NCBI GenBank assembly: GCA_019347915.1 | Contig: JAHWKL010000004.1 | Coordinates: 1 to 48,186 of the forward strand | Direction of reading: 5' to 3' | Origin: Actinomycetota bacterium | GTDB lineage: Bacteria; Actinomycetota; Acidimicrobiia; Acidimicrobiales; CADCSY01 | DNA length: 48,186 nt | Part shown: positions 23,367 through 40,409 of the stretch, in pieces | Position numbering within the stretch: the stretch's first letter is position 1 | How the letters are laid out: each line of letters starts with the position of its first letter | The notes under the pieces: generated by a model | The model's database searches: none | Told to the model about the DNA's origin: nothing | What the model saw: only the letters and a program-made list of their open reading frames with translations | Translations under genes and position numbers: made by a program

Positions 23367-24854
23367 GTGGCCATCCCCAAGGTCTGCGGGATCGAGACCG
23401 AGTACGGCATCGTGGTCCGGGGCGCCGCTGAGCCCAACCCGATGGCGGCCTCCTCGCTGCTGATCAACGCCTACGTGTCGTCGCTGCAGCCCCGCGTCGG
23501 TTGGGATTTCGAGGACGAGTCCCCCGGCAACGACGCCCGGGGCTACCGGGTCGAGGGCCCTGCCGCGCCGGAGGTCGAGACCCATCTGGTCAACGCCGTG
23601 CTGACCAACGGCGCCCGTTACTACGTCGACCATGCCCACCCGGAGCTGTCCATCCCCGAGTGCCGTGACGCCCGTGAGGTCGTCGTCTGGGACAAGGCCG
23701 GCGAGCAGATCCTCCTGCGTTCCATGCGTGCGGCCCAGGCCACGCTGCCGCCCGGGCAGGAGCTGGTCGTCTACAAGAACAACAGCGATCGCAAGGGCAA
23801 CAGCTACGGCTGCCACGAGAACTACCTCGTCGACCGGGCCGTGCCCTTCCACCGCATCGTGGCGGGGATCTTGCCCTTCTTCGTCACCCGCCAGCTGTTC
23901 GCCGGGGCGGGCAAGGTGGGCTCCGAGGCCCCGGGCCTCTCCTCGGCCGAGGTCCCCTTCCAGCTGTCCCAGCGGGCTGACTTCTTCGAGGAGGAGGTGG
24001 GGCTCGAGACCACGCTGAAGCGCCCCATCGTCAACACCCGTGACGAGCCACACTGCGACGCCCAGAAGTACCGTCGCCTCCATGTGATCCTGGGTGACGC
24101 CAACTGCTCCGAGCTCGCCACCTTCCTCAAGGTGGGCACGACCGCCCTGGTGCTGGCCATGATCGAGGACGACGAGCTGCCCCGGAACCTGGCGCTGGCT
24201 TCGCCGGTCCGGGCGCTGCGCCAGGTGTCCTACGACCTCGACCTGGGGCTGTCGCTCGAGCTGGCCGACGGCGGGCGGATCAGCGCCCTCGACATCCAGT
24301 GGGAGTACCTCACCTGGGCCCGGAAGTACGCCGACACCCACGGGCTCGAAGCCGTCGGTGAGGAAGTGGGCGGCGAGATCCTTCAACGCTGGGAATCCGT
24401 GCTCACCGCCCTCGAGACCGATCCCATGTCGCTGGCCGGCTCCCTCGACTGGGTGGCGAAGTACACGCTGCTGTCCGCCTACCGTGACCGCCACGGGTTG
24501 GCGTGGGACGCCGCCCGGCTGGCAGCGATGGACCTGCAGTACCACGACCTGCGCCCGGAGCGCTCCCTCTCCGCCCGTCTCGGTCTCGAACGACTCACCG
24601 AGGACGCCGAGGTCGAGGCGGCGGTCACCGAACCCCCGGCCACGACCAGGGCCTGGTTCCGCGGCAAGTGCCTGCAGCGGTGGGCGTCCCAGATCGTTGC
24701 CGCCAACTGGGACTCGCTGGTCTTCGACGTGGGTGCCGACCCGTTGCGCCGGGTGCCGATGATCGAGCCACTCAAGGGGACAGCGGCCATGGTCGACGAC
24801 TTGTTGGAGGCATGTGCCACGCCCAGCGAGCTGCTCCAGCGGTTGGGCACGTGA
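23367..24854 (+). CDS. dop: Pup deamidase/depupylase Dop
   Basis: [45 protein letters not shown]; precedes pup. Confidence 0.95.
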   Translation: MAIPKVCGIETEYGIVVRGAAEPNPMAASSLLINAYVSSLQPRVGWDFEDESPGNDARGYRVEGPAAPEVETHLVNAVLTNGARYYVDHAHPELSIPECRDAREVVVWDKAGEQILLRSMRAAQATLPPGQELVVYKNNSDRKGNSYGCHENYLVDRAVPFHRIVAGILPFFVTRQLFAGAGKVGSEAPGLSSAEVPFQLSQRADFFEEEVGLETTLKRPIVNTRDEPHCDAQKYRRLHVILGDANCSELATFLKVGTTALVLAMIEDDELPRNLALASPVRALRQVSYDLDLGLSLELADGGRISALDIQWEYLTWARKYADTHGLEAVGEEVGGEILQRWESVLTALETDPMSLAGSLDWVAKYTLLSAYRDRHGLAWDAARLAAMDLQYHDLRPERSLSARLGLERLTEDAEVEAAVTEPPATTRAWFRGKCLQRWASQIVAANWDSLVFDVGADPLRRVPMIEPLKGTAAMVDDLLEACATPSELLQRLGT

Positions 24855-24881
24855 ACAGTGCGAACAGTGAGGTGATGAGCG

Positions 24882-25079
24882 ATGGTTGAACGGGAACATC
24901 GGAGGAAGCCGGCGCCGAGCCGCCACGAGGAAGAGGCGGTCGACGAGCAGCCGACGAAGTCCGAGAAGGGGGAGAAGATCAAGGCCGAGCTCGACGACCT
25001 GCTGGACGAGATCGACGAGGTCCTGGAGGTGAACTCCGAGGAGTTCGTCCGGTCCTACGTCCAGAAGGGTGGACAGTAG
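24882..25079 (+). CDS. pup: Prokaryotic ubiquitin-like protein Pup
   Basis: 65 aa, DLLDEIDEVLEVNSEEFVRSYVQKGGQ, C-terminal GGQ. Confidence 0.97.
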   Translation: MVEREHRRKPAPSRHEEEAVDEQPTKSEKGEKIKAELDDLLDEIDEVLEVNSEEFVRSYVQKGGQ

Positions 25080-25136
25080 GCTCCGGCTCGGTTCTCCACT
25101 CAGGGCGAGAACATCGAGCGGGTAGCCTCCCCGAGC

Positions 25137-25970
25137 GTGGCCTTCCCCTTCTACCTGCCCGGTGACGATCCGGGCCCCAGCTTCGCCGAGCTCCTGCGCC
25201 GCACCGGCGGGTGCCCTCCCACCCCGGCGGGCCCGATCGACGACGTGACGCACGGCACCACGGTCGTGGCCCTGCGCTACGCCGACGGCGTGGTCATGGC
25301 TGGCGACCGCCGGGCGACGTCGGGGAACCTCATCAGCCATCGCACCATGGAGAAGGTCTTTCCTGCCGACCGGCACTCCGGGGTGGCCATCGCCGGAGCG
25401 GCAGGGCCGGCAGTCGAGATGGTGCGCCTCTTCCAGCTCCAGCTCGAGCACTACGAGAAGGTGGAGGGCGTCGAGCTGAGCCTGGAAGGCAAGGCCAACC
25501 AGCTGAGCGTCATGGTCCGCAACCACCTCCCGGCGGCCATGCAGGGCCTCATGGTGGTGCCTCTGTTCGCCGGCTACGACCTTGGCCGCGGCGCCGGCCG
25601 CCTCTTCCAGTACGACGTGACCGGGGGACGCTACGAGGAGAGCGACTTCGCCACCAACGGGTCCGGCCGGCTGCACGCCGGAACGGTGGTCAAGCTCGGG
25701 TACCGAGAGGGCGTCGAGCGGACCGGTGCGCTCGACCTGGCCATCTCGGCGTTGTTCCAGGCCGCCGACGAGGACTCGGCCACCGGCGGTCCCGACCTGG
25801 TCCGGGGCATCTACCCGACCATGGCCACCATCACGAGCGCCGGCTTCGAGCGGGTGGACGCCGACGAGGTGGCCGACCGCTTCCGCCGGCTGGTCGAGCG
25901 CTTGTCGACGCCCGAGGGCACGGCCAGCACGGGGGCCACACCCACCATCGGCGGTGGAGGTGCGTCATGA
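25137..25970 (+). CDS. prcB: Proteasome beta subunit
   Basis: HG|TTVVALRYADGVVMAGDRRAT; implied 40-residue propeptide before Thr1. Confidence 0.96.
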   Translation: MAFPFYLPGDDPGPSFAELLRRTGGCPPTPAGPIDDVTHGTTVVALRYADGVVMAGDRRATSGNLISHRTMEKVFPADRHSGVAIAGAAGPAVEMVRLFQLQLEHYEKVEGVELSLEGKANQLSVMVRNHLPAAMQGLMVVPLFAGYDLGRGAGRLFQYDVTGGRYEESDFATNGSGRLHAGTVVKLGYREGVERTGALDLAISALFQAADEDSATGGPDLVRGIYPTMATITSAGFERVDADEVADRFRRLVERLSTPEGTASTGATPTIGGGGAS

Positions 25971-26644
25971 CCATGCCCTTCTACGTCTCCCCCGAGCAGG
26001 TCATGAAGGACCGGGCCGACTACGCCCGCAAGGGGATCGCCCGGGGCCGCAGCCTGGTCGCTGCCACCTACGACGACGGCATCCTGATCTGCGCCGAGAA
26101 CCCGTCCCGCCGGTTGCGCAAGATCAGCGAGATCTACGACCGGATCGCCTTCGCCGCGGTGGGGAAGTACAACGAGTTCGACCAGCTCCGGATCGCCGGG
26201 ATCCGTGCCGCTGACCTCAAGGGCTACGCCTACAGCCGCCAGGACGTCGACGCCCGCAGCCTGGCCAACAACTACGCCCAGATCCTGGGGCAGATCTTCA
26301 CCCACGAGATGAAGCCCATGGAGGTCGAGATCCTCGTGGCCGAGGTCGGCACCATCCCGGAGCAGGATCGCCTCTTCCACCTGCTCTACGACGGCACGGT
26401 CGTCGACGAGAGCCGGTTCACCGTGCTGGGGGGCGAGGCGGAGACCATCGCCGAGCGGCTCCGGGAGCACTACGCCGACGGGCTCGACCAGCCGTCGGTC
26501 ATCCGGCTGTCGACGGTGGCGCTGGGCGGGCCGGACCGGACCCTCAGCGCCGGCGAGCTCGAGGTGGCGGTGTTGAGCCGCAGCGAGGAGGGCCGGGCGT
26601 TCCGGCGGCTGGACGAGGAGACCCTTGCCCGCCTGCTGGGATGA
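25967..26644 (+). CDS. prcA: Proteasome alpha subunit
   Basis: MTMPFYVSPEQVMKDRADYARKGIARGRSLVA; ATGA overlap with prcB. Confidence 0.96.
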   Translation: MTMPFYVSPEQVMKDRADYARKGIARGRSLVAATYDDGILICAENPSRRLRKISEIYDRIAFAAVGKYNEFDQLRIAGIRAADLKGYAYSRQDVDARSLANNYAQILGQIFTHEMKPMEVEILVAEVGTIPEQDRLFHLLYDGTVVDESRFTVLGGEAETIAERLREHYADGLDQPSVIRLSTVALGGPDRTLSAGELEVAVLSRSEEGRAFRRLDEETLARLLG

Positions 26645-26654
26645 CGCGGGAGGC

Positions 26655-26981
26655 TCAGGCGACGGCGCTGGCGTAGGCCTGGACCACCAGGGCCAGTACC
26701 AGCAGCAGGGCGAACCACAGCGACACCGGCACGACCCGGCCGGGGCCTTCGCCGTCATCGTCGAAGGCCGACTCCACCTCGTCGACCAGCAGAAGCTCGC
26801 GGGCCAGCGCCAGGTCGGGCTCGTCCACCAGCACCTCGACGGCGCCCATGGGGTACGGGCCGTCGACGCCGCCGCCACGGAGCTGGGTGACCACACCCTC
26901 TGATCCGAGCCGAGCGGCCAGGACCCGGGCGTGGAAGCCGGAGGGCACCCTGGCCAGCGGCACCATCCTCACCTCGGCCAC
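26655..26981 (-). CDS. DUF2007-like small membrane protein
   Basis: MAEVRMVPLARVPSGFHARVLAARLGSEGVVTQLRGG... plus C-terminal TM; GTG start with TAGGCT 6 nt upstream. Confidence 0.65.
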   Translation of the reverse strand: MAEVRMVPLARVPSGFHARVLAARLGSEGVVTQLRGGGVDGPYPMGAVEVLVDEPDLALARELLLVDEVESAFDDDGEGPGRVVPVSLWFALLLVLALVVQAYASAVA

Positions 26982-27000
26982 CTCATGAGCCTACTGAGGG

Positions 27001-27221
27001 CCGCCTCCGGCGGCGAGCGTGGCAGGCTCGCTTCGCTCGCGGAAGGACTCGGTGCCGCCTGCGGCGGCGCTCAGTCCCGCTCCGTCCGGCCAAGCCGGCT
27101 GCGCCGGCGGCCGGACGGCGGATTATCGCCTGGCGAGGCTGCGGAGGCCGCCAGGCGGAGCAGCGACGAGGACTGGTCCAGCTCCGTGCGAACGGGCGCC
27201 GGCGGATTATCGCCGGCGCAA
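27001..27221 (+). repeat. Palindrome-rich mosaic intergenic repeat, copy A
   Basis: 105-bp core 27026..27130 matches the reverse complement of 39833..39937 with 6 mismatches; second copy of GGCGGATTATCGCC at 27201..27214. Confidence 0.9.
27082..27118. repeat. Perfect hairpin within repeat copy A
   Basis: CCGTCCGGCC-AA-GCCGGC-TGC-GCCGGC-GGCCGGACGG (10+6 bp arms, AA bulge, 3-nt loop). Confidence 0.9.
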
Positions 27222-27240
27222 GACAGATAGCGTGACGCCG

Positions 27241-28608
27241 ATGGACCGGAGGATCTTCGGGCTGGAGAACGAGTACGGCGTCACGTGCACCCTGCGTGGT
27301 CAACGTCGCCTCAGCCCGGACGAGGTGGCCCGCTACCTCTTCCGCCGCGTCGTCTCGTGGGGCCGGAGCAGCAACGTGTTCCTGGAGAACGGCGCCCGTC
27401 TGTACCTGGACGTGGGCAGCCATCCCGAGTACGCCACCCCCGAGTGCGACTCCATCCACGACCTGGTGGTGCACGACAAGGCCGGGGAACGGATCCTCGA
27501 ACAACTGCTGACCTTCGCCGAGCAGCGCCTCCGAGAGGAGGGCATCCGCGGGGTCATTTACCTGTTCAAGAACAACACCGACTCCGCCGGCAACTCGTAC
27601 GGGTGCCACGAGAACTACCTGACCAGCCGGCGTGACGACTTCGGTCATTACGCCGAGGTGCTCATCCCCTTCCTGGTGTCCCGCCAGGTCTACGCCGGCG
27701 CCGGCAAGGTGCTCCAGACGGCCCGCGGGGCGATGTACTGCATCTCCCAGCGGGCGGAGCACATCTGGGAGGGGGTCTCCAGCGCCACCACCCGGAGTCG
27801 CCCCATCATCAACACGCGAGACGAGCCCCATGCCGACGCCGAGCGCTACCGGCGCCTGCACGTCATCGTGGGCGATTCCAACATGAGCGAGTACGCCACC
27901 TTCCTCAAGGTGGGCGCCACGTCGATCCTGCTGCGGATGCTCGAGGACCCGGGGGTGGTGCTCCGTGACATGACACTGGAGAACCCCATTCGTGCCATCC
28001 GCGAGATCAGCCACGACACGACGTGCCGGAAGCGGGTGCGCCTGGCCCATGGCCGAGAGGTGAGCGCCCTCGACATCCAGAGTGAGTACCTGAACCGGGC
28101 ATTGCGCTACGCCGAGGCGAAGGGTGTGAGCGCACTCGAAGAGCAGGCGCTGCGCATGTGGGAGCACTGCCTGACCGGCCTGGCCAAGGACCCCCTCTCG
28201 CTCGACCGGGAATGCGACTGGGTCATCAAGCACAACCTCATCGAGGCCTACCGCGACCGCCACGACCTGCCGCTGATGCATCCCCGAGTGGCCTTGATGG
28301 ACCTGCAGTACCACGACGTGAACCGGGAGCGGGGGCTGTTCTACCGGCTGCAGGCTCGTGACCTGGTCGACCGCATGTGCACCGAGGAGGAGGTCGATCG
28401 AGCCGGGCCCGGCTCCCTCGAGCCTCCGCAGACCACCCGTGCCCGCCTGCGTGGCGAGTTCATCCGCCGGGCCAAGGAACGCAAGCGGGACTACACCGTC
28501 GACTGGGTGCACCTGAAGCTCAATGACCAGGCCCAGCGGACCGTGCTGTGCAAGGACCCGTTCAAGTCCAGGGACGAGCGAGTCGAACGGTTGATCGCCT
28601 CGTTGTGA
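27241..28608 (+). CDS. pafA: Pup--protein ligase PafA
   Basis: [16 protein letters not shown]..., [50 protein letters not shown]. Confidence 0.96.
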
Positions 28609-38643: not shown

Positions 38644-39822
38644 GTGGACCTGCGCCGGCTGAAGGAGCGCGCGTGCGCCCGCGTCGACGAGCTGGCGCCG
38701 GCGCTCATCACCACGTCCCACCAGATCCACGCCCACCCGGAGCTGTGTTTCGAGGAGCACTTCGCCCACGACCTGCTCACCTCGTTGCTCGAGCGGGAGG
38801 GCGCCGAGGTGACCCGTGGCGCCTACGGCCTCGACACCGCCTTCGACGCCCGGTCCGGCGGCGAGGGGCCCACCGTGGTCGTGTGCTGCGAGTACGACGC
38901 CCTGCCGGGCATCGGCCACGCCTGCGGGCACAACGTCATCGCCGCCGCCACCGCCGGCGCCGGCCTGGCCGCCGCCGCCGTCGCCGAGGAGGCAGGCGGC
39001 CGGGTCCGGGTGCTCGGCACCCCCGCCGAGGAGGGCGGGGCCGGCAAGGTCGAGCTCGCCCGTCGCGGGGCACTCGACGGTGTGGACGCCGCCATGATGG
39101 TTCACCCCGCCGGCGCCGATCTGGCCACCATGGACTCCCTGGCCGCGGCCATGCTCGAGGTCGAGTACTTCGGCGAGGCGGCCCACGCCGCCGCCGCCCC
39201 GCAGCAGGGCCGCAACGCCCTCGACGCCGCCGTCCTCGGGTACCTCAACGTCGCTGCGCTGCGCCAGCACATCGCCGACACCGACCGGGTGCACGGCGTG
39301 TTCACCAAGGGTGGTGACAAGGCCAACATCGTGCCCGACCACACGGCCATGGGGTGGATGGTCCGCTCGGCCCGGGCGCCGTCGCTCGACCCGCTCAAGG
39401 CCCGGGTCCTCGCCTGCTTCGAGGCCGGGGCGCTGGCCACGGGCTGCTCGGTGGAGCACCGCTTCGTCAGCCACGACTACGCCGAGATGGTGGACAACCC
39501 CGTGCTGATCGACCTCTACGCCGCCAACTCCGCCGCCCTGGGCCGGCCGTTGTCCCGGGTGGCCGGTCCTGGGGAGCGGGTCGTGGGCAGCACGGACATG
39601 GGCAACGTGAGCTACCTGGTGCCCTCCATCCACCCCATGATCAAGGTCAGCCCTTCGGGAGTCTCCATCCACTGCGCCGAGTTCGCCCGCCACGCCCGCG
39701 CCCCGGCCGGCGACCGGGCGGTCGTCGACGGGGCCAAGGCACTAGCCATGACCATCGTCGACCTGTGGGTGGCCGAGGGAGCGCTCGACCGGGTCAAGGC
39801 GGCGTTCGCCCCGCCGGCTTAA
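38644..39822 (+). CDS. M20-family amidohydrolase/peptidase (AbgA-like)
   Basis: HAHPELCFEEHFAHDLL, CCEYDALPGIGHACGHNVIAA, GTPAEEGGAGKVEL. Confidence 0.92.
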   Translation: MDLRRLKERACARVDELAPALITTSHQIHAHPELCFEEHFAHDLLTSLLEREGAEVTRGAYGLDTAFDARSGGEGPTVVVCCEYDALPGIGHACGHNVIAAATAGAGLAAAAVAEEAGGRVRVLGTPAEEGGAGKVELARRGALDGVDAAMMVHPAGADLATMDSLAAAMLEVEYFGEAAHAAAAPQQGRNALDAAVLGYLNVAALRQHIADTDRVHGVFTKGGDKANIVPDHTAMGWMVRSARAPSLDPLKARVLACFEAGALATGCSVEHRFVSHDYAEMVDNPVLIDLYAANSAALGRPLSRVAGPGERVVGSTDMGNVSYLVPSIHPMIKVSPSGVSIHCAEFARHARAPAGDRAVVDGAKALAMTIVDLWVAEGALDRVKAAFAPPA

Positions 39823-39825
39823 TCA

Positions 39826-39974
39826 TTGCGCCGGCGATAATCCGCCGTCCGGCCGCCGGCGCAGCCGGCTTGGCCGGACGGAGCAGGATCGAGCGCCGCC
39901 GGAGGCGGCACCGAGCCGTTCCGCGAGCGAAGCGAGCTGTGCTGCTCCGCCTGGCGGCTGCGCAGCCGGCCGCC
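39826..39974 (-). repeat. Palindrome-rich mosaic intergenic repeat, copy B (inverted relative to copy A)
   Basis: Core 39833..39937; hairpin 39845..39881; 21-nt TTGCGCCGGCGATAATCCGCC 39826..39846 is the exact reverse complement of 27201..27221. Confidence 0.9.
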
Positions 39975-39977
39975 CTG

Positions 39978-40409
39978 TCACCGCCGGCGCCGGCGCCGGC
40001 GGACGACCACCCCCACGACGGCGCCGAAGGCCAGGTGGTCGGCGACCTGCACCGCGGTGGGAAGGGCGGCGATGGCGGGGTAGCGGCGCCCCACCACGCC
40101 CAGGTCCAGGCCGGCGATGAGCAGCCCGGCAGCGGCGCCGGCCAGGACCGTGCCGCGCTCGGGGAGGACCAGGGCCAGCAGCGTGGCCCAGCCCAGGGAC
40201 AGGCCGGTGTGGGCGATCACCCCACCTGCCAGCAGCGCCGGGACCGGGCTTTCGGGGGCCACCAGGAGCGTCCCCGCCGCCTGCACCGGTGCGAGGGGGT
40301 CGCCGCCGGTGGCCACGGCATGGAGGGTCGAAGGCAGGCCGCTCGACGCCCACGCCACGGCGCCGGCCACCACCCCGTCGCCCATCGCCGCCGCGGTGCA
40401 GGGGCTCAT
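39978..40409 (-). CDS. Small integral membrane protein, hypothetical
   Basis: 143 aa, several hydrophobic segments, C-terminal poly-Arg. Confidence 0.55.
   Translation of the reverse strand: MSPCTAAAMGDGVVAGAVAWASSGLPSTLHAVATGGDPLAPVQAAGTLLVAPESPVPALLAGGVIAHTGLSLGWATLLALVLPERGTVLAGAAAGLLIAGLDLGVVGRRYPAIAALPTAVQVADHLAFGAVVGVVVRRRRRRR

Follow-up and report, generated by a model that had tools for sequence, protein, structure and literature searches.

The window, a stretch of 48,186 nucleotides, is one contig (C189) of a 2.7-Mb MAG comprising 244 contigs, and it contains palindromic repeats at two sites. The first, array 1 (27001-27222, + strand), lies in the gap between two divergent genes (26981|27241). 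On its left is a gene for a DUF2007-like small protein (26655..26981, - strand; Pfam score 23.4, below the cut-off of 25.7), and on its right, with the array upstream of it, is pafA, encoding the Pup ligase (27241..28608, + strand; PF03136, E 2e-161). The second, site 2, lies in the gap between two convergent genes (39822|39978) and consists of a single unit on the - strand (~39826..39970). The 3' ends of both neighbours adjoin this element, namely an M20-type peptidase/amidohydrolase gene (38644..39822, + strand) and a gene for a small protein without Pfam match (39978..40409, - strand). Around pafA, direct-repeat families D1, D3, D5 and D6 are also observed at 23774-28331 with a spacing of ~3.8 kb, which suggests a second Pup-ligase-like (Dop-like) paralogue upstream of pafA; of the two, pafA is the one assigned with Pfam.

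The original prediction described two inverted 105-bp blocks with six mismatches and an identical end of 50 bp, both intergenic and each holding a 16-bp hairpin and GCCGCC-type palindromes. These features are all present. A repeat search of the window gave two arms of 105 nt, 27026-27130 and 39833-39937, which are 94% complementary, in line with six mismatches, and the final 50 nt of 27026-27130 are identical to those of the reverse complement of 39833-39937. Both copies share the 16-bp hairpin (10 + 6 bp, with an AA bulge and a TGC loop) and a GCCGCC-N3-GGCGGC palindrome, and both fall within the gaps given above. The bounds of the blocks are real but incomplete, as the first copy belongs to the array 27001-27222 and the second to the unit ~39826-39970.

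The basic unit of the family, Y, has a length of ~87 bp and exhibits three hairpins. H1 (GCTGC-GGAG-TCCGC CAG GCGGA-GCAGC) is followed by a spacer of ~16 nt, then by H2 (CCGT-GCA-ACGG) and H3 (GCGCCGGCG GATTAT CGCCGGCGC), in which the GATTAT loop is near-invariant. The foot of H1 is GGAG or GCAG, with an A that is invariant in 46 units, and GTAG itself was not seen among them. A second unit, X, is an elaborated form of Y: H1 and H3 are the same, H2 is extended, and the spacer is replaced by a longer block. The third module, Z, can reach ~150 bp and is a frequent neighbour of the Y unit (L086, L094, L096, L123 and L062). Array 1 comprises three parts, Z' + X + Y, all on the + strand. Z' (27001..27027; CCGCCTCCGGCGGCGAGCGTGGC) is a truncated Z, corresponding to the 3' portion of the longer modules at these five loci. 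It is followed by an X unit without H1 (27023..27130), identified by blastn matches to the family, which consists of the GCTCGCTTCGCTCGC block, the GCCGCC-N3-GGCGGC hairpin, the large H2 hairpin CCGTCCGGCC...GGCCGGACGG and the H3 core GGCGGATTATCGCC at 27117-27130. The complete Y unit (27134..27222) matches the covariance model R1 with 94 bits, and its assignment also rests on alignment and covariation; its parts are H1 (~27138-27164), a variable spacer (~27165-27181), H2 (27184-27195) and H3 (27197-27218, loop GATTAT). At site 2, the single X unit has its H1 at ~39941-39966, the X middle block, the extended H2 hairpin, and the H3 core at 39833-39846 with the tail GGCGCAA.

With regard to the whole genome (G000), a blastn search with 27001-27230 gave ~75 matches, grouped into ~45 intergenic loci, and R1 gave 63 matches. 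The window repeat is not due to chance, since the genome contains 48 occurrences of GGCGGATTATCGCC and none of the reversed control pattern. Units within arrays are arranged head-to-tail, and the gaps between genes in which they lie are short. According to our own codon-score gene caller, 38 of 41 array clusters lie clear of called genes, except for overlap with a gene end, in a genome whose window is 95% coding (binomial P ~1e-46). The right ends of arrays are often ~15 bp or less from a gene end, and terminal copies exhibit an A+T-rich stretch after H3, at about positions 8-17. By hand count, ~12 of 48 arrays lie within 300 bp of a contig end (P 7e-6). The predicted dispersed, non-autonomous-looking, palindrome-rich mosaic family is thus borne out by these matches, by the intergenic bias and by the variable occupancy described below.

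A pattern scan of GTDB genomes found the family in sister MAGs and in an Actinomycetota groundwater MAG, JACPNV01 (G060). R1 gave 10 matches in the sister species G001, 41 in G060, six in G459 and one in G450. The Y-type units of G060, G459 and G450 have changed stems that still pair, so that the assignment of the repeat to the host lineage in the original prediction was too narrow. In other genera of the host's family, R1 matched only G003 and G011, twice each, and of these at least the matches on G003 C10 and G011 C186 are on contigs 86-91% identical to this genome, which look misbinned. A search of 398 genomes drawn from the phylum, in which the filters were stricter and few candidates of each genome were scored, matched G000 and one copy in G345 and no others. 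Taken together, these results indicate that the family is patchy. A blastn search in distant mode of plasmid and phage records gave no match to the family. All genomes compared are MAGs, and some of their contigs look misbinned.

The sister species G001, of the same genus and ~91% identical in DNA over the window region, allowed occupancy to be compared. For 24 arrays, the two flanks were joined and searched for in G001; counting the two sites of the window, both flanks fall on one contig at 14 sites. The element is absent at 11 of the 14, a figure biased towards empty sites as occupied sites tend to break assemblies; the other three comprise L098, where half of H1 is left, and two sites at which the element is present. 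A g1-type relative shares about eight more occupied sites with this genome, and the units at these sites often differ. Array 1 itself is Z' + X + Y here, X in G001, and Z + Y on a close relative's contig found in the G011 bin. The site 2 element is absent from G001 and also from four outgroup MAGs (G003, G009, G010 and G011). As the site is empty in these outgroups too, the element is probably an insertion, which is the simplest reading; site 2 is the one site at which this polarisation was made. The ancestral sequence there was not simply interrupted, as ~26 bp of it were replaced. The family is therefore not a pair of copies at fixed positions.

Within arrays, the spacers of array mates are identical in 71% of pairs (mean identity 0.91), against 0.6% of pairs (mean identity 0.56) between arrays. 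Short pieces of the flanking sequence are found again between the units of G060. Both observations point to local tandem duplication. It is also conceivable, though quite unlikely, that these are old repeats with no present transposition, for which homologous recombination and gene conversion between arrays are now the main means of spread, and deletion the means of loss. The swapping of X, Y and Z content at shared sites, the half of H1 left at L098 in G001 and the replaced ancestral sequence at site 2 would all fit such a history. It accounts less well for sites such as site 2 and L097, whose flanks are found in the sister species without any repeat.

The predicted structured module is supported by a conserved fold with compensatory changes. 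For 46 Y units, RNAalifold predicted the hairpins with double changes in 8 of 18 pairs. In a hand-written hairpin structure, 95.6% of cells are paired against a shuffled mean of 91.1%, a percentage biased in favour of this structure as it follows the consensus. Compensatory changes occur in 9 of its 22 pairs (shuffled mean 3.6) and doubly changed cells number 32 (shuffled mean 4.5). None of 500 shuffles reached the observed values of pairing and covariation, and slid control structures scored far lower. Single copies have fold energies moderately below those of shuffles (z -1.8 to -3.1; z = -3.1 for 27026-27136) and can also adopt alternative folds. Stem mismatches of the G.T and A.C types (9 and 5 events) are without clear difference, and no acting strand is singled out.

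Such conservation could mean that the hairpins are kept for a function in RNA, as terminators, as mRNA-stabilising hairpins or as a regulatory motif of the flanking genes. The compensatory changes extend across distant lineages, G060 has copies inside apparent operons (for example between EF-Ts and an amino-acid kinase, and between a PAPS-reductase-domain protein and an EF-Tu-like GTPase), and X-core elements of the genus g3 often begin 2 nt past the stop codon of the upstream gene. Nevertheless, sister species differ in which sites are occupied and by which units, the genes flanking the arrays are diverse, and some arrays lie between divergent genes, where a terminator has no role. No U-tract was seen, and the repeat has no Rfam match at gathering score; with E up to 10, the matches do not exceed chance level. 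We therefore consider retention for RNA function unlikely as the main explanation. The idea that the elements supply the stop codons of their neighbours was rejected, the stop being native at several empty sites.

Reading the family as mobile elements raises the matter of the mobilizer. The Y1 (RAYT/TnpA-REP) partner that had been proposed did not turn up: PF01797 has no match in the seven carrying MAGs (G000, G001, G003, G009, G010, G011 and G060), incomplete assemblies leaving a small doubt, while the same search is positive in G006, a genome of the host's family without elements. Three pairs of nearby arrays enclose ordinary genes, none of them a transposase, and neither this inspection nor the PF01797 search found a mobilizing enzyme or an autonomous copy. 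The elements could still be true REP/BIMEs mobilised by a RAYT that the assemblies have missed, since the H1 palindrome has at its 5' foot a GGAG or GCAG, which recalls the GTAG tag of REPs, and a repeat-flanked RAYT gene would fall on a short contig and be lost in binning, in an assembly where the repeats mark contig ends. We regard this as rather unlikely, as the search that detects PF01797 in G006 finds nothing in the seven carriers, G060 with its 41 copies has contigs of more than 100 kb, and BIMEs alternate in orientation (PMC2817692) whereas the units here are head-to-tail.

The alternative half of the proposal, a MITE-like family, was not upheld. MITEs would be internally deleted derivatives of a DDE-type insertion sequence, and the copies here are indeed short, repeated, intergenic and variable in position. 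However, terminal inverted repeats were not found in 30 arrays, with matches at 8 of 20 positions, and neither was a target-site duplication, the mean shared word being 4.10 vs 4.01 permuted (P 0.29). This makes such an origin highly improbable. The empty sites in G001 exhibit no clear target-site duplication either, and no clear target motif is apparent at array ends. A role of the variable spacer as a guide for the insertion site was rejected, as spacers do not match their own flanks in excess.

The likeness to REP/BIMEs, the GTAG repeats associated with RAYTs, proved the sounder part of the comparison. Both families consist of short intergenic palindromes in many copies, with mosaic arrays and variable occupancy, and the G(G/C)AG at the hairpin foot here is reminiscent of the REP tag. 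In contrast to REP/BIMEs, the family exhibits three different hairpins per 87-bp unit, in head-to-tail rather than alternating order, and no Y1/RAYT was found. CGTC-tagged REPs are likewise palindromic families, for which the absence of a dedicated transposase is reported (PMC3733652); they differ in being short single hairpins, reported from five other phyla, with another tag and consensus. Actinobacteria are not mentioned in that GTAG/CGTC survey (PMC3733652), and the REP table of a 2025 survey includes three Actinomycetota genomes (PMC12306157). Pneumococcal BOX elements resemble the family in that they are modular, intergenic and stably folded, vary in how many tandem modules they contain, and are of uncertain mobilization. 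They differ in belonging to an unrelated phylum and in having terminal inverted repeats, similar to those of ISSpn2 (PMC3049150), and it is whole units that are in tandem here. The likeness to BOX suggested by this comparison is one of way of working, with no claim of descent. Among actinobacteria, the family may also be likened to the mycobacterial MIRUs, short dispersed units that occur in tandem, between genes or inside operons. MIRUs are not known as three-hairpin palindromic units.

Based on these observations, the family appears to be a new, RAYT-less, REP/BIME/BOX-like mobile hairpin family; a prior description is possible, subscription journals having been mostly outside our literature search. 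The explanation that we favour, with some confidence, is that its members are non-autonomous dispersing hairpin repeats which work like REP/BIMEs or pneumococcal BOX elements. Colonisation of a new site would require a trans-acting enzyme that recognises the hairpins, perhaps while they are single-stranded in replication, and inserts a copy between genes, in a short stretch that is often A+T-rich. Expansion inside a site may then occur by slippage or unequal exchange. As copies sit in untranslated stretches, including gaps in apparent operons, they would form stable mRNA hairpins if transcribed; effects on the ends or the stability of the mRNA, if any, are probably local and secondary. More tentatively, Actinomycetota could have an undescribed mobilization or single-strand-DNA-processing system, not of the Y1 type, whose substrate is the three-hairpin unit. 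REP-like families without RAYT are an open puzzle (PMC3733652), and this family places such repeats in Actinomycetota. Its three-hairpin unit is defined and can be found with the covariance model R1, empty sites are available to compare, and some MAGs carry dozens of copies, so that their gene content can be compared in search of a mobilizer.

A few further elements were observed outside the host genome. One Y unit resembling those of this genome (L231, G345 C43:216-302) occurs in a distant family of the phylum, on a stretch of only 1.8 kb, and may reflect either transfer or misbinning. Elements of this genome's own type are present on short contigs of G003 (L063, L137 and L138, on C53, C10 and C42); on C53 and C10 the flanks share 91-93% identity with this genome, which sets them apart from the remainder of G003, and these short contigs are likely misbinned. 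At L080/L154, the orthologous gap of G003 (flanks ~74-78% identical) holds an X-core of the g3 type where this genome holds X. In G003, G009 and G010, of the genus g3, the X-core elements (L139-L157) have neither H1 nor H3, and their outer stems vary between copies and stay paired.
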